NCBI RefSeq assembly: GCF_004322855.1
Contig: NZ_CP036402.1
Coordinates: forward strand, 4,092,001-4,156,000
DNA length: 64,000 nt
Source: Egibacter rhizosphaerae
GTDB taxonomy: Bacteria > Actinomycetota > Nitriliruptoria > Euzebyales > Egibacteraceae
Direction of reading: 5' to 3'
In this document: one piece after another, positions 11,687-38,268 of the stretch
Layout of the letters: each line of letters starts with the position of its first letter
Position numbering within the stretch: position 1 is the stretch's first letter
Program-made: the position numbers and the translations under genes
The notes under the pieces: generated by a model
Databases searched by the model: none
The model's input: the letters and a program-made list of their open reading frames with translations, nothing else
Told to the model about the DNA's origin: nothing

Positions 11687-13327
11687 ATGACACCCCCTCA
11701 CGACACCGAGACGCTGGTCGGCGGTCAGCTCATCGCCGGCGAATGGATCCGGCCCGACGGGGGCGACGTGCAGGCCATCGATCCCCGAACGGGCGAGCCC
11801 GTTCTCCCCGTGTTCGCCGAGGCGACCACTGTGGAGGTGGACTCCGCCGCTGGCGCAGCCGGCTCGGCCGCGCCCGCGCTCGCGCGTTGGGACGGGCATC
11901 GGATCGCGGGACTGCTCAGGGCGATCGCAGCTCAGCTCGAGGAACGGGACGAGCCGATCGTGGCGCGAGCGGACCTGGAGACCGCCTTGGGTCTGGGCCG
12001 TCTGCGGAACGAGCTGGCGCGCACCACCGCACAGTTCCGCATGTTCGCCGACCTCGTGGAGACGGGTGCGCACTACGAGGCGATCATCGATGGCCCCGAC
12101 CCGGCCACGACGCCACCGCGTCCGGATCTTCGGCGACTGCTGCTGCCGCTGGGTCCGGTGGCGGTGTTCGGGGCGAGCAACTTCCCCCTCGCGTTCAGCG
12201 TTCCGGGGGGTGACACCGCGTCGGCTCTCGCGGCCGGCTGTCCGGTGGTCGCGAAGGCGCATCCGGCGCATCCCGGCACGTCCGAGCTCTGTGCCGCTGC
12301 GATCGCCGACGCGATGCGAGACGCGGGCGCGCCTGCGGGGACGTTCTCCCTGGTTCAGGGTGCGGGACCTGAAGTGGGCACGATGCTGGTTGGCCACGAG
12401 GCCGTGGCCGCGGTCGGGTTCACCGGCTCCTTGAGCGCGGGGCGTGCGCTTCACGACGTGGCGGCTTCCCGTCCCGCGCCGATCCCTGTCTACGCGGAGA
12501 TGGGCAGTCTGAACCCGGTGTTCGTGACCGCGGCGGCCCTCGCGGAGCGCGGAGAGGAGGTCGCCAGTGCGTTCGCGGGATCGATGACGCTCGGCACGGG
12601 GCAGTTCTGCACCAAGCCCGGCGTCGTCTTCGTACCTGACGACGAGCAGGGTCAGGCGTTCGCCGAGGCAGTGGTGGCGCGACTCGCGGCGCACGACCCG
12701 GGCCCACTGCTCACGCCCCGCATCCGTGACAGCCTCGCGACACAGCTCGACGAGACCCTGCAGCTGCCCGGGGTGGAGACCCTCGTGGAGGGGCAGCTCC
12801 CAGGCGGTCAGGCTCCGATAGCCGGGCCCACGCTTCTGCGTACCGACTTCGACACGTTCCTCGCGACGTCAGCACTCGCCCGTGAGCACTTCGGACCGGT
12901 CGGTCTGCTCGTACGCGTGGGATCGTCCCGGCTGGTGGAGGCGGCCGGGCACATGGACGGGAGCCTCACCGCCACGGTGCATGGGACGGAGGGGGAGGCC
13001 TCGCGACTGGAGGCGCTGTTCGAGGAACTGACCCGTCGCGCCGGTCGCGTGATCTGGAACGGGTTCCCCACCGGCGTCGCGGTGACCGCCGCCCAGCACC
13101 ACGGGGGCCCGTACCCAGCGACGACGGCGCCGGGCCACACCTCAGTCGGCACGACGGCCGTTCGTCGCTTCCAACGTCCGGTGGCCTACCAGGGTACCCC
13201 GGAATCTTTGCTCCCCGCGGCACTGCGCGATGACAACCCGCTCGGGATCCCTCGCACCGTCGACGGGGTCCTCACTCGCGAGTCCGTGGAGTCGGTGCGC
13301 CCGTTCACTGGGAAGGGCTCGTCATGA
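11687..13327 (+). CDS. Alpha-ketoglutaric semialdehyde dehydrogenase (type III, NADP)
   Basis: A 546-residue aldehyde dehydrogenase, longer than typical ALDH and matching the type III KGSADH group. The catalytic Cys is about C308 in GQFCTKPGV and the general-base Glu about E271 in YAEMGSLNPVF. The Rossmann segment FGASNFPLAFSVPGGDTASA is distinctive of this group. It oxidises 2,5-dioxopentanoate to alpha-ketoglutarate, the last step of oxidative pentose, hydroxyproline and glucarate pathways. The start ATG 11687 follows a GAGAGG site. It overlaps the next gene by 4 bp (ATGA). A dehydratase that can make its substrate is two genes downstream. Confidence 0.9.
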   Translation: MTPPHDTETLVGGQLIAGEWIRPDGGDVQAIDPRTGEPVLPVFAEATTVEVDSAAGAAGSAAPALARWDGHRIAGLLRAIAAQLEERDEPIVARADLETALGLGRLRNELARTTAQFRMFADLVETGAHYEAIIDGPDPATTPPRPDLRRLLLPLGPVAVFGASNFPLAFSVPGGDTASALAAGCPVVAKAHPAHPGTSELCAAAIADAMRDAGAPAGTFSLVQGAGPEVGTMLVGHEAVAAVGFTGSLSAGRALHDVAASRPAPIPVYAEMGSLNPVFVTAAALAERGEEVASAFAGSMTLGTGQFCTKPGVVFVPDDEQGQAFAEAVVARLAAHDPGPLLTPRIRDSLATQLDETLQLPGVETLVEGQLPGGQAPIAGPTLLRTDFDTFLATSALAREHFGPVGLLVRVGSSRLVEAAGHMDGSLTATVHGTEGEASRLEALFEELTRRAGRVIWNGFPTGVAVTAAQHHGGPYPATTAPGHTSVGTTAVRRFQRPVAYQGTPESLLPAALRDDNPLGIPRTVDGVLTRESVESVRPFTGKGSS

Positions 13328-14184
13328 AACTCGTGCGGGTCGGCCCCCCGGGCCGGGAACGTCCCGGTGTGCTGGGAGCCGGGGGAGAGGTGCTCGACGC
13401 CACCAGCGTGACCGCGGACTACGGTCCGGAGTTCTTCGCGTCCGACGGGCTCTCACGCCTCCGAGAACGGGTGGACGCTGTCGACGGGCTCCCGCGGATG
13501 CGAACCGACGGGGAACGCGTGGGTGCACCCGTGGGCCGCCCGTACGAGGTACTGTGCCTGGGCCTCAACTACGCGGATCACGCGGCCGAGTCGGGCATGA
13601 CCTTGCCCGAGGAACCCGTGGTGTTCAACAAGCTCTCGAACACGATTGTCGGGCCCTTCGACGACATCGTGCGTCCTCCCCACAGCGAGCGAGTCGACTA
13701 CGAGGTCGAGTTGGCCGTCGTGCTCGGTGCGCCTGCCCAGTACCTCCCCGACCTCGAGGCTGCGGCGGCGACGATCGCCGGCTATGCCATCACCAACGAC
13801 GTCTCCGAGCGCGACTACCAGCTGAACCGGGGCGGGCAGTGGGTGAAGGGGAAATCGTGCGCCACGTTCAACCCATTGGGGCCGTGGCTGGTCACCGCGG
13901 ACGAGGTCCCCGACCCCCACGCCCTTGCCATCGAGCTGTCGGTGAACGGCGAAACCCGTCAGGCCAGCCAAACCGCGGAGATGGTGTTCGCGGTGCCGTA
14001 CGTGGTCTGGTACCTCAGCCAGTTCTTCGCGCTGGAGCCGGGAGACCTGATCAACACTGGCACGCCTCCTGGGGTTGGGATGGGTTGGGAGCCTCCTCGG
14101 TACCTGAAGGCCGGGGACACGGTCGAAGCGACGATCGAGGGGCTCGGGACCCAACGGCAGCGTGTGGTCGATCTCATCCCTTGA
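13324..14184 (+). CDS. Fumarylacetoacetate hydrolase-family enzyme (diketo-acid hydrolase or lyase)
   Basis: A 286-residue FAH-fold protein. The fold signature GLNYADHAAESGM and the metal-binding segment ERVDYEVELAVVLG are clear. It is followed by NDVSERDYQ and NTGTPPGVGMG. Family members hydrolyse or decarboxylate beta-diketo acids: fumarylpyruvate, ureidoglycolate, or 2,4-diketo-3-deoxy-L-fuconate/rhamnonate. The sequence character is nearest the last group. The sugar-acid neighbours and the KDF dehydrogenase-like SDR at 38.4 kb fit that reading, but the substrate is inferred. ATGA overlap with the dehydrogenase gene. Confidence 0.85.
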   Translation: MKLVRVGPPGRERPGVLGAGGEVLDATSVTADYGPEFFASDGLSRLRERVDAVDGLPRMRTDGERVGAPVGRPYEVLCLGLNYADHAAESGMTLPEEPVVFNKLSNTIVGPFDDIVRPPHSERVDYEVELAVVLGAPAQYLPDLEAAAATIAGYAITNDVSERDYQLNRGGQWVKGKSCATFNPLGPWLVTADEVPDPHALAIELSVNGETRQASQTAEMVFAVPYVVWYLSQFFALEPGDLINTGTPPGVGMGWEPPRYLKAGDTVEATIEGLGTQRQRVVDLIP

Positions 14185-15095: not shown

Positions 15096-15701
15096 CTACG
15101 AGAGCGCGTCGCGGAGCTCGCGGGTCAGCATGACGGTCGCGACGTTCTGGATGGCGAACTCCGTGGAGGCGTGCTGCCACTCGTCGTCGAAGGTGGCGGT
15201 CGCGTCGCTCGGCAGCACCACCCGGAACCCGGCATCGGCGGCATGACGCGCCGTGTGCTCCACCGCCATGTTCGTGAGGGCCCCTGCACTGATCAGCGTG
15301 TCGACGCCGAGGGCGCGGAGGAGGGGCTCGAGACGGCTCGAGACGAACGGGTTCATGCGGTTCTTCTCGACCACGTGCTCGTCGTCCCTGGGGACCAGGT
15401 TCTCCACCGGCGCGGCCCCCCAGGTCCCCCGGACCATCGCCCCGGAGTCGATCAAGCCCTGGAAGAGGGGAGCGCACGCTCGCTGGTCAGCGGCACCGGG
15501 CGCCACCACGTACCACACGTGCACGACGTGCCCACCGGCTTGCTTGAGATCGTCGGCGAGAGCGCGGAGGTTCTCCACGGTGCCCTGCTTGGCGGCATGT
15601 GTCGCGGGACCGGCGTCCGCGAAGGCGCCGCCCTCGGTGACCACGTCGTTCTGCATGTCCTGCACGATCAAGGCGGTGCGCGGGGCGTCGAATCGCGACA
15701 T
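15096..15701 (-). CDS. Isochorismatase-like hydrolase lacking the catalytic cysteine
   Basis: A 201-residue protein with the isochorismatase/cysteine hydrolase fold. The Asp (D15 in IVQDMQND) and Lys (VVEKNRMNPF) of the Asp-Lys-Cys triad remain. The cysteine is replaced by Ala146 (GALTNMAVEHTAR, where amidases have NxCVExTAR). Amidases of this fold need that Cys. True isochorismatases do not, so it may be a Cys-independent hydrolase or an inactive homologue. It lies 25 bp after the SMP-30 gene on the same strand, probably in its transcript. It is convergent with the dehydratase gene. Confidence 0.85.
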   Translation of the reverse strand: MSRFDAPRTALIVQDMQNDVVTEGGAFADAGPATHAAKQGTVENLRALADDLKQAGGHVVHVWYVVAPGAADQRACAPLFQGLIDSGAMVRGTWGAAPVENLVPRDDEHVVEKNRMNPFVSSRLEPLLRALGVDTLISAGALTNMAVEHTARHAADAGFRVVLPSDATATFDDEWQHASTEFAIQNVATVMLTRELRDALS

Positions 15702-15726: not shown

Positions 15727-16638
15727 TCAGGCGGCTCGCATGTAGCCGAGGGGGTTGCCGGCGACGCGCATGCGGAGGCGGTACAGCGAGGTCGAGGCGG
15801 TGATGAACAGGCTACGCCACCCCCCCTCGCCCCAATTGAGGTTCGCGACGTTCTCGGGGACGTGGATCACGCCGAGGCGTTCGGCATCCGGGCTGATCAC
15901 CCAGATGCCACCGGGCCCCGTCACGTAGACGTTGCCTCGCTCGTCGCACTTCATCCCGTCCGGGACCCCCTCCTCGATGACACCTCGCCCGATGCGGTCG
16001 AAGAACACGCGGTCGTTCGTGAGACTGCCGTCGGCCTCGACATCGAAGGCGCGGATGTGGGCCCGTGTGGTGTCGTTGACGTAGAGGACGGACTCGTCGG
16101 CGGAGAAGCACAGCCCGTTAGGCTGATCGAAGTCGTCGGCGAGCAGCTGCAGCGGTCCCCCTCGCGGGGGGACACGGAAGACGCCCTGGAAGTCGAGTTC
16201 CTGGGGGCGCTCCTCGCCCACCCCCGGCATCCGGCCGAAGGTGGGATCGGTGAAGAGGATTCCCCCGTCGTCGGCGACGATGACGTCATTCGGCGAGTTG
16301 AGCTCTCGACCGTCCCAGTGGCTCGCGAGCGTCTCGTGTGTGCCGTCCGAGCGCTCCCGGACGAGCGCACTCGTCACGTGCTCGCAGACGATGAGGCTGT
16401 GGTCGGGCTCGTACGTCATCCCGTTGCACTTGTTGCTGGGATGCTTCACCACCGTCACGCCGCCCGCAGGTTCCCACCGACGACGGGTGTCGTCCGGCAT
16501 GTCGCTGAACAGCAGGTAGCCACCGGGGCCGTTCCACAGGGGCCCTTCCGTGAACTGGAAACCGGTCGCCACTTGCTCCACGTCCGCCTCTTCGCCGACC
16601 AGATCGTGGAACTCTGGGGCGTCGATCTCAGCGCTCAT
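15727..16638 (-). CDS. SMP-30/gluconolactonase-family lactonase
   Basis: A 303-residue six-bladed propeller protein that hydrolyses sugar or other lactones with a divalent metal. The ligands expected in the family are visible: Glu in FTEGPLWNG, Asn in LNSPNDVIVADD, Asn in QPNGLCFS and Asp in VPDGMKCDERGN. ATG 16638 is chosen for its GGTGGGG site; the open frame extends 15 codons further. A good promoter and the palindrome at 16760-16774 lie directly upstream. It probably opens a lactone intermediate before the FAH-fold steps of the divergent cluster. Confidence 0.9.
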   Translation of the reverse strand: MSAEIDAPEFHDLVGEEADVEQVATGFQFTEGPLWNGPGGYLLFSDMPDDTRRRWEPAGGVTVVKHPSNKCNGMTYEPDHSLIVCEHVTSALVRERSDGTHETLASHWDGRELNSPNDVIVADDGGILFTDPTFGRMPGVGEERPQELDFQGVFRVPPRGGPLQLLADDFDQPNGLCFSADESVLYVNDTTRAHIRAFDVEADGSLTNDRVFFDRIGRGVIEEGVPDGMKCDERGNVYVTGPGGIWVISPDAERLGVIHVPENVANLNWGEGGWRSLFITASTSLYRLRMRVAGNPLGYMRAA

Positions 16639-16713
16639 GATCCCCACCACCTCAACCGGCCGAATGCGACGGACCACGCACATGCCCGAACGAGCCTCTG
16701 TGTGTGTGCAGTG

Positions 16714-16776: not shown

Positions 16777-17562
16777 CTATGCAGGGATCACCGCTCGCAG
16801 AGGTTCGGAGGGGGCGCTCAGGTCATGGCCCGAGAGCCGGCTGGTCGCCTCGCTGAGCCGCCGCACGAGCGGGCCGTCCGGCCGGCCATCGAAGCGGCTC
16901 TCCTCGATGCAGATCGCTACGGCGCCGATCACCGCACCGGCATGGTCGCGAACGGCGCATGCCACGCCGGAGACGCCCCGCCGCCAGCTCTCGCGGTTGA
17001 TCGCGTAGCCCCGCTCGCGTGTCCGCGACAGTTCCTCGCGGAGCCGGTCCGCGTCCGTGATCGTGTGGTCGGTGTACGCGGGTAGCCGTCGCCCGAGCAC
17101 CCGATCGACCTCGTGAGACGGTTGATGCGCAAGGAGCATGCGGCCCGGCGAGACACAGAAGGCGGGCGCTCGCAGGTTGGCGAGACGCTCCCGGCCGGGT
17201 CCCAGTGTCCTGGGATGGGCCTCCGCGAGGTACAGGAGATCTCCCTGGTCGTACAAGCCGAGCTGTACTGAGGTGTCGAGAGCGCGGCTCAGCGCAACCA
17301 ACTCGGGCCAAGTGTGGACGCGCAACGCCTCGGCGCCGCGAGCCCTGATGCCGAGACCCACGGCGCGGTGCCCGAGGCGCAGGTATCCCGTCGATGGGTC
17401 TCGACGCAGGAAACCGCGCTGCTCGAGCTCGAGCACGAGGTCCCGGGCGTCCGGCTCCTCGAGACCCAGCAGGGTGGCCGCGGCGGTATCGCTCATGGGA
17501 CGCGAAGCCGTGGCGAGTGCCTCGAGCAGTCGAAACGTCGAGTGGACCGGCTCTTCGTTCAC
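16777..17562 (-). CDS. IclR-family transcriptional regulator 1
   Basis: A 261-residue regulator with an N-terminal winged helix (about 1-65) and a C-terminal IclR effector domain (about 80-250). Features include VHSTFRLLEALATA at the N terminus and the effector-domain stretches SPGRMLLAHQPS and RGYAINRESWRRGVSGVACA. GTG 17562 is selected by an ideal GGAGGAG site; the frame is open 19 codons upstream. It is flanked by two predicted target promoters. It is the best candidate to bind the TTCCG-N5-CGGAA sites, as activator or repressor. The effector is unknown. Confidence 0.9.
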   Translation of the reverse strand: MNEEPVHSTFRLLEALATASRPMSDTAAATLLGLEEPDARDLVLELEQRGFLRRDPSTGYLRLGHRAVGLGIRARGAEALRVHTWPELVALSRALDTSVQLGLYDQGDLLYLAEAHPRTLGPGRERLANLRAPAFCVSPGRMLLAHQPSHEVDRVLGRRLPAYTDHTITDADRLREELSRTRERGYAINRESWRRGVSGVACAVRDHAGAVIGAVAICIEESRFDGRPDGPLVRRLSEATSRLSGHDLSAPSEPLRAVIPA

Positions 17563-17688
17563 GGCTCCTCCGCTCCGCAGGAAATCGTCCGGACCCCCGG
17601 CCACCGCCGGGTCGTGCATTTTCGATTATGCGTGGGTTGAGAATGGCAAGCAAGACCCTGGAAGGCACGCCGCACCTTCCGAGACGCG

Positions 17689-17741: not shown

Positions 17742-18050
17742 TCAGAACACGCGGCGCTCTTCGGTGATGAGCCGTGTGCGCGCCGAGGTGTGCGCGGCCA
17801 CGTCCTCCCCGGCGGCTCGTCCCGCCTCGGTCGCGAACGCGGCGGTCCGTGCCTCGTCGTCATCGAACCAGAGCTCGCTCACCGCGTCGTAGGGATGGTT
17901 CGGATCGTCCTCGATCACCACGCTCATGCGGTACTCCCGCAGCCCGGGGAGGCGCTTGCCGTGCTCGACGTGCTCCTGGAGGGCCCAGGCGCGGAAGTCC
18001 TCGAGGGAGAGGTCCTCTCGGCGCTTCATGAGCGAGACGATCTTGATCAC
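17742..18050 (-). CDS. EthD-domain protein
   Basis: A 102-residue ferredoxin-like alpha/beta barrel protein of the EthD family, starting VIKIVSLMKRREDLS and containing a conserved HxxxxKxLPGxxxY-type segment (HGKRLPGLREYRM). EthD proteins accompany ring- or ether-degrading oxygenases and cyclases; several are small dimeric cofactor-free enzymes. GTG 18050 has an AAGGAA site. It is the last gene of the minus-strand operon, 41 bp after the cyclase gene. The real reaction is not known. Confidence 0.8.
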   Translation of the reverse strand: MIKIVSLMKRREDLSLEDFRAWALQEHVEHGKRLPGLREYRMSVVIEDDPNHPYDAVSELWFDDDEARTAAFATEAGRAAGEDVAAHTSARTRLITEERRVF

Positions 18051-18803: not shown

Positions 18804-19898
18804 TCAGGCGACGCGGATGAAGCCCTCGCCACCTGTGCTCGAGACGGTGGCGAGTGAGTCATCCTCGTCGAACACGATCCATTTGCCCTCGCGCCGGGGT
18901 TCCCGAGGCTGCTGTTCGTCCAGGGCCCGCAGGACTCGCTCGGGGCTGGCCGGCATCTGATTGATCCACACGCCGAGGGCGTCGTGTATCGCGGCAGCGA
19001 TCGCGGGGGGTTGGGCGTTGTTCGCCATCTCTCCGATGGCCTTGGCGCCGTAGGGGCCATCGACGGAGGGGTTCTCGATGATGAGGTTCTCGTAGACCGG
19101 GGTGTCCTTCATCGCCGGCGGGAAGTAGTGCCCGAAGCGATCGCCGCGGTGCTCGGTGCTCGGGTAGTACGGATAGGCTTCCTCGAGGAGCCCGAGGCCG
19201 ATCCCCATGGCGCCGCCGCCCTCGATCTGGCCCTCGACCATGGTCGGGTTGATCGCGCGGCCGACGTCGTAGGCCTGGATGAGTCGCAGTACGCGCACGT
19301 CGCCGGTTTCGTCGTCGGCCTCGACCTCCGCGACGCACGCGGCGTACGAGATCGCCGCGTGGGGGTCGCACTCACCGGTCTCGGGATCCGGTTCGGACGC
19401 CGGCTTCATCCACCCGCCCGACCCGGTGATGAGTGTCCCGTGGGCGTACGTTGCGGAACCCGCGACCTCGTCGACGCCGAGCGACTGGCTGGGCGAACCG
19501 CGGACCTGTACGCGGCCGTCGACGACCTCGAGGTCCTCGGCATCGACCTCCAGCTCCTTGGATGCGACCGCCAGGAGCGCGTCCCGTGTCTGCTCCGCGG
19601 CCACGCGCACCGCGTTCCCGCCGATGAACGTGCCACGGGACGCGAACGTGCCCATGCACACCGGCGAGGAGTCGGTGTTGGAGACGTCCATCTTGACCCA
19701 CTCGTACGGCACGCCCAACGTGTCGGCGACGATCTGGGTATGGATCGTCCGCGACCCCTGACCGATGTCGACGGTGCCCGCGAACACGTCGACCCGGCCG
19801 TCGGGTTTGATCTTGATCCACGCCTGGCTGGGGTCGCCCCCCAAGTTCATGCCGGTCGGGTACTCGATCGCCGCGAGTCCTCGTCCCCAGTGCTTCAT
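18804..19898 (-). CDS. Mo hydroxylase large subunit, C-terminal half (separate polypeptide)
   Basis: A 364-residue protein corresponding to the second molybdopterin-binding half of xanthine dehydrogenase-family large subunits. The MoCo segments GTVDIGQGSRTIHTQ and YGAKAIGEMANN can be seen; the Glu in GEM matches the catalytic glutamate of the family. It starts with an ATG overlapping the stop of the N-terminal half (ATGA) and has its own GGAGGG site. So the split looks real and translationally coupled. A 458 + 364 division resembles NdhL/NdhM of Eubacterium barkeri nicotinate dehydrogenase. Confidence 0.88.
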   Translation of the reverse strand: MKHWGRGLAAIEYPTGMNLGGDPSQAWIKIKPDGRVDVFAGTVDIGQGSRTIHTQIVADTLGVPYEWVKMDVSNTDSSPVCMGTFASRGTFIGGNAVRVAAEQTRDALLAVASKELEVDAEDLEVVDGRVQVRGSPSQSLGVDEVAGSATYAHGTLITGSGGWMKPASEPDPETGECDPHAAISYAACVAEVEADDETGDVRVLRLIQAYDVGRAINPTMVEGQIEGGGAMGIGLGLLEEAYPYYPSTEHRGDRFGHYFPPAMKDTPVYENLIIENPSVDGPYGAKAIGEMANNAQPPAIAAAIHDALGVWINQMPASPERVLRALDEQQPREPRREGKWIVFDEDDSLATVSSTGGEGFIRVA

Positions 19899-21271
19899 AC
19901 CCGTTCCCTCCAGGCGTCGGCCTTGCCGATCTGGTCACGTAGATGTTCGGGCAGGAGGTCGCCCGACCGCTCCTCGCGGGTCATCGCCGCGTACTCGGGC
20001 GCCAGCTCCACGCCCGCGGCGTCGGCGCAGGCGAGGATCGTGGGCAGCGTTGACGGATCGTCCAGTTTCACCCGTGTGGGGGTGAGGTCCCCGATCCGGT
20101 TGCCGTTCTTCAGGCGGATCTCCCACGGGTCCAGTCCGAGCTCGTCCGCGATGCGGGTGAGGTGCGTCTCGGTCGCGAAGGAGACCGAGGTCACTCCGAA
20201 CCCGCGCATCGCCGAGGTCGGCACCCGGTTCGTGTAGACGACGTAGGAGTTCATGAACACGTTCGGGATGGTGTAGGCGCCGGCCGAGTGGTGGAGGTGC
20301 TTCATCGCGCCGTACCCGGAGAAGCCCGTATAGGCCCCGGCGTCGTGCAAGGTGAGGGTCCGGCGGCCCAGGATCCATCCGTCGTGTGTGACGGCGTCGG
20401 CGATCTCGATGTGCCACGGCGCTCGGGTCCAGAGCGCGGTGAACTCCTCCTCTCGGGTCGCCCGGTACTTCACCGGCCGCCCTGTCTTGCGGGCGAGCAG
20501 GGCCGCGACCGGTTCGCAATGGGTGTCCACCTTCCCACCGAAGCCACCGCCCACCGTTCCACCGACGAACTTGAGCTGGTCGAAGGCCACGCCCAGGTAT
20601 TTCGCGACGATGTTCATGGAAAAGTACATCGCCTGCGTCGTCGAGTGCACGGTGATCCGCCCGTCCGCCTCGGGCACGGCGAGGGCAACCTGGGGTTCGA
20701 TCGGTGCCTGCTCGATGGCTTGGGGCCGATACACACCAGTGACGATCGTGTCGGCCTGTTCGAACGCCCAGTCGACGTCGCCCTTGCGCACGCGGCAGTG
20801 GTGGAACGGGTCGTAGAAGAAGAGGTTGCCGTCCGGAGCGACCTTGGGCGACTCCGGGTCGAGGGCCTTGCGCACGTCGAAGAGGGCTTCGCGCTCCTCG
20901 TACTGAACGTCGATTCGTTCGACCGCCTGTTGTGCGAGTTCCTGGGTGTCGGCCGCGACGGCGGCGACGAGCTGACCCTTGTAGCGGACCTCGTCCTCGG
21001 CGAGCAGCGGGAGATCCGGGGGGACGCCCACGTCCTCGAGGTGCCCCACCACGTTCCGGGCGGGGTCGGCGTGCGTGATCACCGCGTGCACGCCGTCCAT
21101 CGCCTCCGCTGCCGAGGTGTCGATGCGGCGGACCCACGCCGAGTCGTAGGGGGAGCGCAGGGTCTTGCACCACAGTATTCCGGGGACTCGGACGTCGTCC
21201 ACGTACGTGGTTCGCCCGGTGACGTGCGCGAGACCGTCATAGCGGGGGAGTCGTGCACCGATGGCCTTCAT
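19895..21271 (-). CDS. Mo hydroxylase large subunit, N-terminal half
   Basis: A 458-residue protein with the a/b hammerhead domain (about 15-125, starting VTGRTTYVDDVRVPGILWCK) and the first MoCo-binding domain (about 145-380). Key segments are IEQAPIEPQVALAVPE, FVGGTVGGGFGGKVDTH and SAMRGFGVTSVSFA. The CO dehydrogenase loop AYRCSFR is absent, so it is an aldehyde/purine/N-heterocycle hydroxylase type, not CODH. It ends where intact homologues continue into the second half. Gene order FAD, 2Fe-2S, Mo-N, Mo-C with ATGA junctions marks one enzyme complex. Confidence 0.9.
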   Translation of the reverse strand: MKAIGARLPRYDGLAHVTGRTTYVDDVRVPGILWCKTLRSPYDSAWVRRIDTSAAEAMDGVHAVITHADPARNVVGHLEDVGVPPDLPLLAEDEVRYKGQLVAAVAADTQELAQQAVERIDVQYEEREALFDVRKALDPESPKVAPDGNLFFYDPFHHCRVRKGDVDWAFEQADTIVTGVYRPQAIEQAPIEPQVALAVPEADGRITVHSTTQAMYFSMNIVAKYLGVAFDQLKFVGGTVGGGFGGKVDTHCEPVAALLARKTGRPVKYRATREEEFTALWTRAPWHIEIADAVTHDGWILGRRTLTLHDAGAYTGFSGYGAMKHLHHSAGAYTIPNVFMNSYVVYTNRVPTSAMRGFGVTSVSFATETHLTRIADELGLDPWEIRLKNGNRIGDLTPTRVKLDDPSTLPTILACADAAGVELAPEYAAMTREERSGDLLPEHLRDQIGKADAWRERV

Positions 21272-21801
21272 GCCTGGCCCTCCACGGTCCGGACGGGGGT
21301 GTCACCGTTGCGCGCGAGGCCGTGTTGGAGTTCCTCGAGATCGAACTGCTCGCCGCGCGCGGCGGCCTTCACGGCATCGAGAATCTTCACGTAGCCGGTG
21401 CAGCGGCACAGGTGCCCGCCCATGGCCTCCTCGATGTCCTCGTCGTCGAGCGCGCTGCCGTGCTCGGCGATCAGCCGGGTGGCGGCGAGGATCATGCCGG
21501 AGGTGCAGAAGCCGCACTGGGCGCCGTACTTGGCGTAGAAGGCCTTCTGGACGGCCGTGAGCTCGCCGTCCGAGGGCAGGCCCTCCACCGTCGTGACGCT
21601 GCCACCATCGGTCAACGCCACGGGGGTGAGACACGACCGACGAGGCTCCCCGTCGATGAGCACGGTACAGGCCCCGCAGCCACCCTGTTCACAACCTGCC
21701 TTGGCGCTCGTGATGCTCAGCTCCTCCCGCAGGACGTGGAGGAGCGAGTGCAACCCGCTGCTGCGGATCTCGTGCTCGACCCCGTTCACGCTCAGTTTCA
21801 T
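21268..21801 (-). CDS. Mo hydroxylase [2Fe-2S] subunit (CoxS/XdhC type)
   Basis: A 177-residue subunit with both cluster-binding domains. The plant-type ferredoxin site is CEQGGCGACTVLIDG plus a distal Cys (RRSC), and the helical site is CGFCTSGM with CRCTGY. All eight cysteines are present. It carries electrons from the Mo site to FAD. ATG 21801 is set by a GGAGGGAG site. A 4-bp overlap with the Mo subunit gene shows coupling. Confidence 0.94.
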   Translation of the reverse strand: MKLSVNGVEHEIRSSGLHSLLHVLREELSITSAKAGCEQGGCGACTVLIDGEPRRSCLTPVALTDGGSVTTVEGLPSDGELTAVQKAFYAKYGAQCGFCTSGMILAATRLIAEHGSALDDEDIEEAMGGHLCRCTGYVKILDAVKAAARGEQFDLEELQHGLARNGDTPVRTVEGQA

Positions 21802-21821: not shown

Positions 21822-22607
21822 TCAGAGCTCGGTCAGGGCCTGGGTGACGAGCTGTGGGAGTCGCCGTCGGCGGTACCACGCCGAAGCGAGCGCATCGTCG
21901 TACGGATCCGCATCCGCCACCGCTTCCGCTGCCGCCTCCTCAGGGCTCGCTCCCGCGGAGAGGGCGGTTTCGACCGAGGGGAGACGGCCGCTCTGCGGCG
22001 CTGCCCCTTTGGCGGCAACACGTGTGACGCCGTCGCTCCGAACCGCGGTCACCGCGAGTGGCGTGTACGGGATGGTGTGGAATCGGTCCATCACCGCATA
22101 GCCAGCGGCCTCCGGTACGGTGAACTCGGCCTCGAGGAGCAAGCGCTCCTCGTCTCCGCCGAACCGGCGCAGGAACGCGTCGACGCCCTCGGTCCGCTCC
22201 CCGGACGGTCCGACGGTTCGGACCGAGGCCTCGAGAGCCAGAAGGACGGCCTGCAAGTCGCCCTCACCGACGGCGCTCACGTTTCCACCGAGCGTGGCCT
22301 GCCGGCGGATCTCCGGATCGCCGATGTGGCCGGCAGCCCTCGCGAGCGGCTCGACGCCCGAGGCAGCGATGGTTTCGAGGGTCGTCGTTGCGCCCACCCG
22401 CACACGGTCGCCGTCGTGGCGCAGCTCGTCCAGGCCGGCGCGATGCAGAAAGAGGGCGCGTCCGGGCCGCACACGCCCGGCCGTGATCTCGGGCTGCAGG
22501 ATCGTGGCGCCGCCGACGACGACGTCCACCCCGTCACCGAAGGCGTCGATCGCCTCCTGCCGCGAAGCAGGCACGACGACCCGGGCGTCGTCCAGCGAAA
22601 CCACCAT
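21822..22607 (-). CDS. Mo hydroxylase FAD subunit (CoxM type)
   Basis: A 261-residue FAD-binding subunit, a little short for CoxM. The pyrophosphate-binding segment VVVGGATILQPEITAG and the second signature GHIGDPEIRRQATLGGNV are intact. It passes electrons from the Fe-S subunit to an external acceptor. ATG 22607 has a GGTGG site; longer in-frame starts run into the promoter region and are rejected. It is the first gene of the operon 22607-17742. Confidence 0.9.
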   Translation of the reverse strand: MVVSLDDARVVVPASRQEAIDAFGDGVDVVVGGATILQPEITAGRVRPGRALFLHRAGLDELRHDGDRVRVGATTTLETIAASGVEPLARAAGHIGDPEIRRQATLGGNVSAVGEGDLQAVLLALEASVRTVGPSGERTEGVDAFLRRFGGDEERLLLEAEFTVPEAAGYAVMDRFHTIPYTPLAVTAVRSDGVTRVAAKGAAPQSGRLPSVETALSAGASPEEAAAEAVADADPYDDALASAWYRRRRLPQLVTQALTEL

Positions 22608-33960: not shown

Positions 33961-34893
33961 ATGGAAGACGATGCACTTCCTCCGCTCATCGAGCCTGAAG
34001 TGGGGCCCGAGGGCGTGCGGGACGCCCTCGCCCGCGAGGGCTACCTGGCCGACGACGGCCTGGCCACCGCTTGCTTCCTGGCGATCCAGCTGCACCGGCC
34101 TTTGTTCCTCGAGGGCGCACCCGGTGTCGGCAAGACGGAGATCAGCAAGGCGCTGGCCGCATGGCTCGGGGCCCCGCTCATCCGACTACAGTGCTACGAG
34201 GGCATCGACGCCGCGCAAGCGCTCTACGACTGGGATTTCCCCCGTCAGCTCCTGCATCTTCGCTCAGTCGAGGCATGGTCGTCGGTGAGTGGAACGTCGC
34301 CGGAACCGGAGGACCTCGAGCGGCGCCTCTACGATCGGCGCTTCCTCGTCGCGCGCCCGTTGCTCCAGGCGCTGGAGATCTCGCCCAGCGTCCTGCTCAT
34401 CGACGAGCTCGATCGCGCCGACGACGACTTCGAAGCCTTCCTCCTCGAGGTACTGAGCGACTTCTCCGTGACCGTCCCCGAGGTGGGCACCATCCGTGCC
34501 GCCCAGCCACCCCTCGTCGTCATTACCTCGAACCGGACCAGAGAGGTCCACGACGCACTCAAGCGGCGCTGCTACTACTACTGGCTCACCTACCCGACCT
34601 TCGAACGTGAAGTCGAGATCCTGCGCACGCGCCTCCCCCGTGCGAGTCGACGACTCGCCGAGCAAGTGACGGCCGCTGTGCAGCAGCTTCGGCGCTCGGA
34701 TCTGACCAAACCCCCGGGCGTGGCGGAAACGCTCGACTGGGCTCAGGCGGTCCTCACACTCGGCTGCGAGGAGCTGGATCCTGACGTTGCAGCTCGCACG
34801 CTCGGCTCGGTACTCAAGTACCAGGAGGATCAGGAGCGAGTCGCCGGCATCGATTACGAGCAGCTGATCGGCGTACCGGTGGAGCCCGGGTGA
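33961..34893 (+). CDS. coxD: MoxR-type AAA+ ATPase (CoxD family)
   Basis: A 310-residue AAA+ protein with Walker A GAPGVGKTE, Walker B VLLIDELDRADD, and the CoxD-like segment RLQCYEGIDAAQALYDWDF. CoxD is a chaperone needed to mature the active site of Mo hydroxylases of the CODH/XDH family. The GTGA overlap with coxE is typical. A client is present in this window: the hydroxylase at 18.8-22.6 kb. The gene symbol reflects the family, not a CO dehydrogenase. Confidence 0.88.
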   Translation: MEDDALPPLIEPEVGPEGVRDALAREGYLADDGLATACFLAIQLHRPLFLEGAPGVGKTEISKALAAWLGAPLIRLQCYEGIDAAQALYDWDFPRQLLHLRSVEAWSSVSGTSPEPEDLERRLYDRRFLVARPLLQALEISPSVLLIDELDRADDDFEAFLLEVLSDFSVTVPEVGTIRAAQPPLVVITSNRTREVHDALKRRCYYYWLTYPTFEREVEILRTRLPRASRRLAEQVTAAVQQLRRSDLTKPPGVAETLDWAQAVLTLGCEELDPDVAARTLGSVLKYQEDQERVAGIDYEQLIGVPVEPG

Positions 34894-36041
34894 GCGACGC
34901 CCGCGTCGACCCGATCCCCACACTCGTCGGCTTCGGGCGGGTGTTGCGCGCTGCGGGTCTCGATGCGGGTCCCGACCGCCTGCTCGCGTTCGAGCGAGCC
35001 CTCGAACGATTGGACGTGACGTCCCGAACCCACGTCTACTGGGCCGGGAGGGTGACGCTGTGCCGGACGCCGGAGGACCTTCCCCGCTACGACCTCGCTT
35101 TCGACGCATGGTTCGGGGGTGCCGTTCCGCTTCCGCCCGAACGCGAACGGGTCGCGAAGGTGGCCCGCGATGTGAGCGCGGCCGGAGACCCGGCCCCCGG
35201 GCGTGAGGGCACGGCCCAGGCGGAGACCGTGGAAGCGGAGGCCAGCCGGCTCGAGCTCCTGCGGCACCGAGACGTCACCACCCTGACCCCATCGGAGCGT
35301 CGAGAGCTGCAACGGCTGCTCGAGGCCTTCTGGCTCCCCGGGGAGCAGCGGCGCAGCCGACGCTGGGGATCCCCGAGGCAGCGCCGGCGGCTCGACCCGC
35401 ACGAGACGGTGCGCGAACTGTTGCGCCACGGAGGGGAGCCGACACGGCTCCGCTATCGATCGCGCCGGCAGCGCCCCAGACCCGTGGTACTGCTGATCGA
35501 CGTCAGCGGCTCCATGGGCGCCTACGCGGACGCGTTGCTCCGTTTCGCCCATGCCGCGCGCCGGCGGGGTCCGGTGTCCACCGAGGTGTTCACGCTCGGC
35601 ACACGGCTCACGCGGGTGACGCGCCAGATGGCGTACCACGACCCGGATCTCGCACTCGCGGCGGTCGCCCACGCGGTGCCGGACTGGGAGGGGGGGACCC
35701 GTCTCGGGGTGATGCTCAAGAGCTTCCTCGACCGATGGGGGCAGCAGGGGGCCGCCCGGGGGGCCGTGGTGGTCGTCCTGTCCGACGGGCTGGAGCGCGG
35801 GGACGTCGCGCCCCTGGCTGCGCAGATGGCCCGTCTCTCGAGACTGGCGCACCGGGTCATCTGGTCGAACCCGCGCAAGGGCCATCCCGGCTACGAGCCT
35901 CAAGCGCGGGGGATGGTCGCGGCGCTACCCCATGTGGACGCCTTCCTGGAAGGTCACAGCCTCGCGGCCCTGCAGCGACTGGCCGCTGCCGTCCTGGGCG
36001 CCGCGGGAGACGATGTCCGTGAGTGGCCCGCGGTGCGCTGA
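34890..36041 (+). CDS. coxE: VWA-domain maturation protein (CoxE family)
   Basis: A 383-residue protein with a von Willebrand A domain (about 195-380) carrying the metal motif DVSGSMGAYADALLRFAHAA, preceded by a helical region with Arg-rich RRWGSPRQRRRLDPHETV. CoxE acts with CoxD in inserting or sulfurating the metal centre of Mo hydroxylases. Overlaps coxD by 4 bp. No coxF (XdhC-like) or coxG is present in the window. Confidence 0.88.
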   Translation: MSDARVDPIPTLVGFGRVLRAAGLDAGPDRLLAFERALERLDVTSRTHVYWAGRVTLCRTPEDLPRYDLAFDAWFGGAVPLPPERERVAKVARDVSAAGDPAPGREGTAQAETVEAEASRLELLRHRDVTTLTPSERRELQRLLEAFWLPGEQRRSRRWGSPRQRRRLDPHETVRELLRHGGEPTRLRYRSRRQRPRPVVLLIDVSGSMGAYADALLRFAHAARRRGPVSTEVFTLGTRLTRVTRQMAYHDPDLALAAVAHAVPDWEGGTRLGVMLKSFLDRWGQQGAARGAVVVVLSDGLERGDVAPLAAQMARLSRLAHRVIWSNPRKGHPGYEPQARGMVAALPHVDAFLEGHSLAALQRLAAAVLGAAGDDVREWPAVR

Positions 36042-36957: not shown

Positions 36958-38268
36958 GTGCTCAGTCATCGCCTCCGCCTCCTCAGCGTCGTCGGGCTGG
37001 GCCTTGCTGTCGTCGGTGCCCTGCTCGTCGTCGTGCTGACCGGCCGAGACGCGCCACGATCCGACGTGTACGCCCAGGACGAGGCTGCGCGGTCGATGAC
37101 CAGCGATCCGGACCGTCGTGCGCCCGCGTGGTGGCAAGCCGAGGACGTGCCGCCCCCACCCGAGCCGCAAGGTGACGCGGCGGAGCTCCCCTGGTTGCGT
37201 GAGGGCAACAGCTCCCATGTGGTCGATGAGGGCGCCGACGTGGTGGGCTGGTTCGCGGATCTCGTCCTCGGAGCGGACGGACGGCCCGTTGTCGCATACC
37301 ACGATCGCAACACGGATGCATTGCGGATCGCCCGCTGCGCGTCGCTCACCTGCGAGGCCGCAGACGTGGTGGCGGTCGACGAAGGGGACCGCGCCGGCTG
37401 GTATCCCTCCATCGACATCGGCGTGGACGGACGACCAATCGTCGCGTATTACCACGCTGGAGAGGGGCAGCTGCGGTTCGCGCGGTGTGACAGCCCTCGG
37501 TGCGAGGCTACGGACGTGACCGTTGTGGACGAGGGGAGTGAGGACGTCGGGGCGTTCCCCTCCCTGGCGATCGGCGCCGACGGGCTGCCGGTGATCAGCT
37601 ATCACGACTACGCACGAGGGACGCTCCGGGTCGCGCGCTGCCGTGATGCCGACTGCCAGGCGGCCGACACGGTGGTCGTCGACGATGGCGACGTCGGGGG
37701 CTTCACGTCGCTGGCGGTCGGAAACCGTGGGATGCCGCTCATTGCCTACTACGACTTCGCGAGCACGTCGCTGAAGCTCGCCCAGTGCGGGCATCCGGGA
37801 TGCGAGGAGGCCGACACCGCGACGATCGACGATGGCGACGACGTGGGGCGGTTCGCGTCCCTCGAGGTGCCCCCGGAGGGGCTCCCCGCGGTCGCCTACT
37901 ACGACGACGGTGAGGGCGTGCTGCGCTTCGCGCGTTGTCGTGACACTGCCTGTGAACGGGTGGCCAGCACGGTGGTCGACGACGACACGCACGTCGGCCG
38001 CTTCGCCTCACTGGCCGTCGATGGGGCAGGGCGTCCCGTGATCGCCTACCGCTACAGCAACGAGGCCGAGCTCCGTCTCGCGCGGTGTGCCACCGACGAC
38101 TGCACGGACGCCAGTATCGTGACCGTCGACGGTCGTGGCGACGTCGGCGCGCACGCCTCACTAGCCCTCGACCAGCGCGAGCGGCCGATCATCGCCCACC
38201 ACGGACGCCGGGCGCTCATGGTCACGCGTTGTGGGAGCGAGACCTGCGTGCCGTTCCAGTCGCCGTAA
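36958..38268 (+). CDS. Membrane-anchored seven-repeat protein, predicted beta-propeller
   Basis: A 436-residue protein. Residues about 8-28 form a signal-anchor helix without a lipobox. From about 80 there are seven repeats of about 45-50 residues, each with GxxGxPxxAYxD and LRxARCxxxxC, so all seven have a C-x4-C pair (RCASLTC, RCDSPRC, RCRDADC, QCGHPGC, RCRDTAC, RCATDDC, RCGSETC). The last repeat lacks the final VVDEG strand. An isolated SSHVVDEGA strand before repeat 1 could close the ring. The fold is inferred; no catalytic residue is seen. Confidence 0.8.
   Translation: MLSHRLRLLSVVGLGLAVVGALLVVVLTGRDAPRSDVYAQDEAARSMTSDPDRRAPAWWQAEDVPPPPEPQGDAAELPWLREGNSSHVVDEGADVVGWFADLVLGADGRPVVAYHDRNTDALRIARCASLTCEAADVVAVDEGDRAGWYPSIDIGVDGRPIVAYYHAGEGQLRFARCDSPRCEATDVTVVDEGSEDVGAFPSLAIGADGLPVISYHDYARGTLRVARCRDADCQAADTVVVDDGDVGGFTSLAVGNRGMPLIAYYDFASTSLKLAQCGHPGCEEADTATIDDGDDVGRFASLEVPPEGLPAVAYYDDGEGVLRFARCRDTACERVASTVVDDDTHVGRFASLAVDGAGRPVIAYRYSNEAELRLARCATDDCTDASIVTVDGRGDVGAHASLALDQRERPIIAHHGRRALMVTRCGSETCVPFQSP

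Follow-up and report, generated by a model that had tools for sequence, protein, structure and literature searches.

A probable four-subunit molybdenum hydroxylase with a two-gene molybdopterin subunit in Egibacter rhizosphaerae

Known molybdenum hydroxylases and the F-S-L-M operon

In quinoline 2-oxidoreductase, 4-hydroxybenzoyl-CoA reductase, CO dehydrogenase and xanthine dehydrogenase, the molybdopterin chain is a single, fused polypeptide. The nicotinate dehydrogenase (NDH) of Eubacterium barkeri, NdhFSLM, whose structure is 3HRD, has its molybdopterin chain cut between the two MoCo domains. NDH consists of four subunits of 23, 33, 37 and 50 kDa, designated S, F, M and L (review PMC10331938). 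Two of the Sphingomonas genes ndrB1B2B3B4 also resemble a large subunit (PMC5239795), and they may represent another split enzyme. Our literature search found no paper on the clade to which the enzyme described here belongs.

The window, a stretch of 64,000 nucleotides of the E. rhizosphaerae contig NZ_CP036402.1, contains one operon with the same F-S-L-M order, S and F lying upstream of L and M:

~21822..22607, minus strand: F, FAD subunit, start codon uncertain
21268..21801, minus strand: S, [2Fe-2S] subunit, 177 aa, with an ATGA overlap with L
19895..21271, minus strand: L, N-terminal half of the molybdopterin subunit (hammerhead and MoCoBD_1), 458 aa
19906..19911, minus strand: GGAGGG ribosome-binding site of M, kept in relatives
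19895..19898, minus strand: ATGA start/stop overlap of L with M, 4 nt
18804..19898, minus strand: M, C-terminal half of the molybdopterin subunit (MoCoBD_2, catalytic Glu290), 364 aa

The sizes of L and M, the ATGA junction and the separate GGAGGG are exactly as a first-pass annotation of this DNA had described them; 8 nt separate the end of the GGAGG in that site from the start codon of M. The overlap is that expected of coupled translation, as judged from its sequence. In Pfam searches, L matches Ald_Xan_dh_C (residues 18-128, E 1e-27) and MoCoBD_1 (residues 158-389, E 5e-69), and M matches MoCoBD_2 (residues 4-267, E 6e-70). Since L ends after MoCoBD_1 and M carries MoCoBD_2, the molybdopterin subunit is cut into two genes between the two MoCo domains, the boundary at which the split had first been placed.

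The active-site motifs are intact in both halves, as had also been claimed: Gln213, GGGFGGK (241) and AMRGFG (354-359) in L, DIGQGS (44) and Glu290 in M. Gln213 aligns with NdhL Gln208, AMRGFG aligns with AFRGFG 349-354 of NdhL, and Glu290 aligns with NdhM Glu289 and KdhL Glu748 (for KdhL Glu748 and the NdhL loop numbering, see PMC8305194). The cofactor-side Gln and AxRGFG in L, and DIGQGS and the catalytic Glu in M, are thus distributed as in NdhFSLM, while the domains and catalytic residues are likewise those of the fused large subunits named above. Together, the three domains, the aligned catalytic Glu and Gln, and the [2Fe-2S] and FAD subunits within the same operon point to a four-subunit hydroxylase of the xanthine oxidase family whose molybdopterin chain comes as two separate proteins, a reading to which we give a probability of roughly nine in ten. 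Among the NCBIfam equivalogs (pucD, XdhA, CoxL, 4-hydroxybenzoyl-CoA reductase and Se-dependent xanthine dehydrogenase), the best score was 325 bits, for pucD, against a cut-off of 784, although these cut-offs presuppose a full-length fused chain and lie almost out of reach of a half chain. Six further large subunits were found in the window genome, and every one of them is fused.

Coupled translation would supply L and M in similar amounts, and the two chains would then dock to rebuild one cofactor site, with L contributing Gln213 and the GGGFGGK and AMRGFG loops and M contributing DIGQGS and the catalytic base Glu290. Because the active-site residues are distributed over both chains, L and M must presumably associate to work, and neither alone should be active. 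The molybdenum center would take oxygen from water to hydroxylate a small organic molecule that the cell imports, and two 2Fe-2S clusters would relay the electrons to FAD. The predicted models of L and M are of low confidence (mean pLDDT 66 and 60, respectively), and no complex was obtained from them.

Relation to nicotinate dehydrogenase and the question of selenium

With M as query against a collection of bacterial and archaeal genomes, ten related loci were found. The nearest relative, L008 from Nitriliruptorales, has the same split at 80–83% identity, and L009–L012 have it at about 60–65%; it recurs in L019, Nonomuraea (L049), Shinella (L051), Yoonia (L052) and the haloarchaeon Salinigranum rubrum (L050), in whose record two proteins are annotated. 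Many further split pairs came from profile searches in two sets of genomes, 299 from the phylum to which L013 (Peptococcaceae) belongs and 249 from the class of L012 (Thermoleophilia). The record of L011 is titled Bifidobacterium breve, but the genome groups with the class of the Thermoleophilia genome G400 and is probably mislabelled.

Is the window enzyme, then, an orthologue of E. barkeri NDH, the selenium-containing nicotinate 6-hydroxylase? The four-subunit plan would fit, as would the top solved-structure matches, which are 3HRD chain A (NdhL) for L (E 1.3e-61) and chain B (NdhM) for M (E 5e-56); the predicted model of M, though weak, also has 3HRD_B as its best PDB fold match. The resemblance to NdhL and NdhM pointed out in the first-pass annotation is therefore sound. 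However, identity of the window L and M to the NDH-type proteins L013 and L015 is only 32–37%, both window chains have C-terminal extensions of about 30–40 residues relative to their NDH counterparts, and the neighboring genes are different.

Trees of the concatenated L and M regions (a quick one of 95 rows and careful ones of 51 and 27 rows) point the same way. The window enzyme groups with split enzymes of Actinomycetota, Alphaproteobacteria, one Firmicute (L134) and a haloarchaeon, in a clade supported at 98* in the 95-row tree, 100/97 in the 51-row tree and 97/95 in the 27-row tree. E. barkeri NDH belongs to a second group, mostly Firmicutes, in which split and fused forms are mixed; the window clade stands beside this group, not within it, and the 51-row tree unites the two at 99/99. 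The closest company of the window enzyme is instead a set of uncharacterised split hydroxylases from Thermoleophilia, Nitriliruptorales, Nonomuraea, Rhizobiaceae, Yoonia and Salinigranum (L008–L012, L019, L049–L052 and L112–L124), with which it shares the clade, the split and a junction with a ribosome-binding site.

The yqeB gene (TIGR03309) has been proposed as a marker of selenium-dependent molybdenum hydroxylases (PMC2276186). It is present in seven of eight Firmicutes hosts of the split enzyme but absent from the window genome, and none of 15 actinobacterial hosts has a match above the cut-off. Taken with the separate clade and the low identity, this makes orthology to NDH quite unlikely. 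The marker is indirect, so its absence argues against selenium without disproving it; selenium in the window enzyme is not supported by these genomic data, and the hint of it in the first-pass annotation has lost ground. The window genome does contain selD, with an in-frame TGA; since selD looks like a Sec protein itself, it says nothing on the window enzyme. The enzyme probably follows the already known NDH-type four-subunit plan, in an uncharacterised clade.

Conservation of the junction and origin of the split

The junction was compared across 67 split junctions, a few of them from one genome twice; neighboring-locus genes were called with a simple script, and many of the relatives are metagenome-assembled genomes. 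In 47 junctions the genes overlap, in 19 there is a gap of at most 30 nt, and in one the gap is 31 nt. A ribosome-binding site is recognisable before M in 62 of the 67. Compared with L, M is read in the -1 frame at 45 junctions, in the other frame at 16, and in the same frame behind a stop at 6.

Three explanations would make the split an accident or an appearance. The first is recent gene fission and decay, with L and M as pseudogene pieces of an enzyme being lost. Nothing beyond the split itself speaks for it, whereas both halves are conserved across phyla with active-site residues intact, and both are conserved coding genes under purifying selection: G+C bias by codon position is strong in each (0.88–0.89 at the third position), and in comparison with L008 dN and dS are 0.127 and 0.97 for L and 0.107 and 0.85 for M, a dN/dS of about 0.13 in either case. 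Decay is accordingly very improbable. Equally slim is the chance that programmed -1 ribosomal frameshifting joins L and M, so that the split would be only apparent. The prevalence of the -1 frame is what this would require, but that relation is given anyway by ATGA and TGATG overlaps, the 22 junctions in the other frame or behind a stop do not have it, and M has a ribosome-binding site. Finally, a one-base sequencing or assembly error could have broken an ordinary fused gene, the L and M frames being one step apart so that a single indel could join them, but it is refuted to the point of a negligible probability by the sharing of the split among relatives, in independent assemblies of many genomes whose overlaps and gaps differ (-1, -4, -8, up to about 30 nt), with the ribosome-binding site before M conserved and dN at the start of M very low (0.039).

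The split is therefore real, and dozens of bacterial relatives and one archaeal relative have it too. The first-pass annotation had set a one-base error against its own claim, and the shared junctions rule this out; the other possibility that it had weighed, that close homologues all have a fused gene, is excluded by L008 and the others. That homologues share the split is seen in L008, many Thermoleophilia, Nonomuraea, Alphaproteobacteria, a haloarchaeon and many Firmicutes, and the split is an established design, no novelty of the window genome.

Two records depart from the usual form of L. On a plasmid of Sinorhizobium BG8 (L048, 6616–8999), the L half before M is seemingly short (377 aa), possibly because of a frameshift in the record. 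In Shinella (L051) and Yoonia (L052), the C-terminus of L is a long Pro/Ala-rich tail ending in Arg residues.

As to origin, the starred branches of the trees require at least 5 to 7 changes of split/fused state, and placing all split rows in a single clade is rejected in a constrained-tree test (p-AU 8.9e-35). On these trees, split and fused forms appear to interconvert repeatedly. The change counts carry no direction, and both a single old split with subsequent fusions and several separate splits at this linker would fit them; with split and fused forms interleaved on the tree, the split may be held in common with NDH or may have arisen on its own. In the Firmicutes loci L140, L142 and L143, a split and a fused molybdenum hydroxylase are separated by a few kilobases of one genome, and these pairs are useful material for how the split is gained or lost.

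Neighboring genes and a possible pathway

The genes around the operon include the following:

13324..14184, plus strand: FAH-family hydrolase, resembling 2,4-didehydro-3-deoxy-L-rhamnonate hydrolase, below cut-off
15096..15701, minus strand: isochorismatase-family protein without the nucleophilic Cys
15727..16683, minus strand: SMP-30/gluconolactonase-like protein, found near split Mo hydroxylases in eight loci
16777..17619, minus strand: IclR-type regulator
17742..18050, minus strand: EthD-domain protein, kept in L008
18092..18760, minus strand: cyclase-family metal hydrolase (arylformamidase / isatin hydrolase-like), adjoining M also in L008 and archaeal L050
22969..27884, plus strand: genes of a Liv-type ABC importer, transcribed away from the Mo operon and kept in part in L008 (Liv name by sequence inspection, no family search)
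33961..36041, plus strand: MoxR-type AAA ATPase and CoxE-like VWA protein, a possible maturation pair

There are two FAH-family enzymes in all, together with aldehyde dehydrogenases, and the cyclase-family hydrolase is weakly like isatin hydrolase and kynurenine formamidase. L008 retains much of this neighbor set, but pathway neighbors vary between relatives. The SMP-30, isochorismatase and MoxR/CoxE neighbors are common to the window and part of the related split loci; those of Thermoleophilia differ in having a B12 diol dehydratase and cupins nearby, and those of Alphaproteobacteria in having an SRPBCC/CoxG-like protein and an amidohydrolase. A B12-dependent diol/glycerol dehydratase, with large and medium subunits fused and the small subunit upstream, stands beside the split hydroxylase in nine loci (L112, 65–2762, and other Thermoleophilia).

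MoxR and CoxE were considered as dedicated partners of the enzyme, but the case is weak, as paralogues elsewhere in the genome score nearly as high. The genome contains four CoxE genes, this one included. A 436-aa open reading frame adjoining the pair (36958–38268, plus strand) has no Pfam match.

In all eight isochorismatase homologues compared (window 15096–15701, L008, L114, L115, L129, L130, L051 and L052), the nucleophilic Cys is replaced by Ala or Ser; they are therefore probably no thiol amidases, and an amidase role is weakened. SMP-30 and isochorismatase domains are fused in a single open reading frame in Shinella (L051, 11915–13480) and Yoonia (L052, 12802–14409, Yoonia by alignment), and this fusion points to a joint function.

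An N-heterocyclic substrate, which the first-pass annotation had raised as a possibility, does not follow from the kinship with NDH, since the window clade is separate from that of nicotinate dehydrogenase; on this point, as on selenium, that annotation went too far. The neighbors point to catabolism in which a ring or lactone is opened, without singling out an N-heterocycle. Metal-dependent and lactonase-type hydrolases would open the oxidised product, aldehyde dehydrogenases would act at later steps, and we would give this outline of hydroxylation, opening and aldehyde oxidation about one chance in three of being right. It is tempting, if somewhat less than an even bet, to propose that the window enzyme belongs to a selenium-free subfamily of split molybdenum hydroxylases in Actinomycetota, Alphaproteobacteria and haloarchaea, with a substrate new for the enzyme family and a pathway that includes SMP-30 and the Cys-less isochorismatase homologue.

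A split known from one crystallised enzyme thus becomes a widespread architecture, apparently gained or lost repeatedly. It would be a mistake to annotate such L/M pairs as xanthine dehydrogenases that are truncated or frameshifted, and the pairs form a natural series for testing how a composite molybdenum site copes with assembly from two chains.
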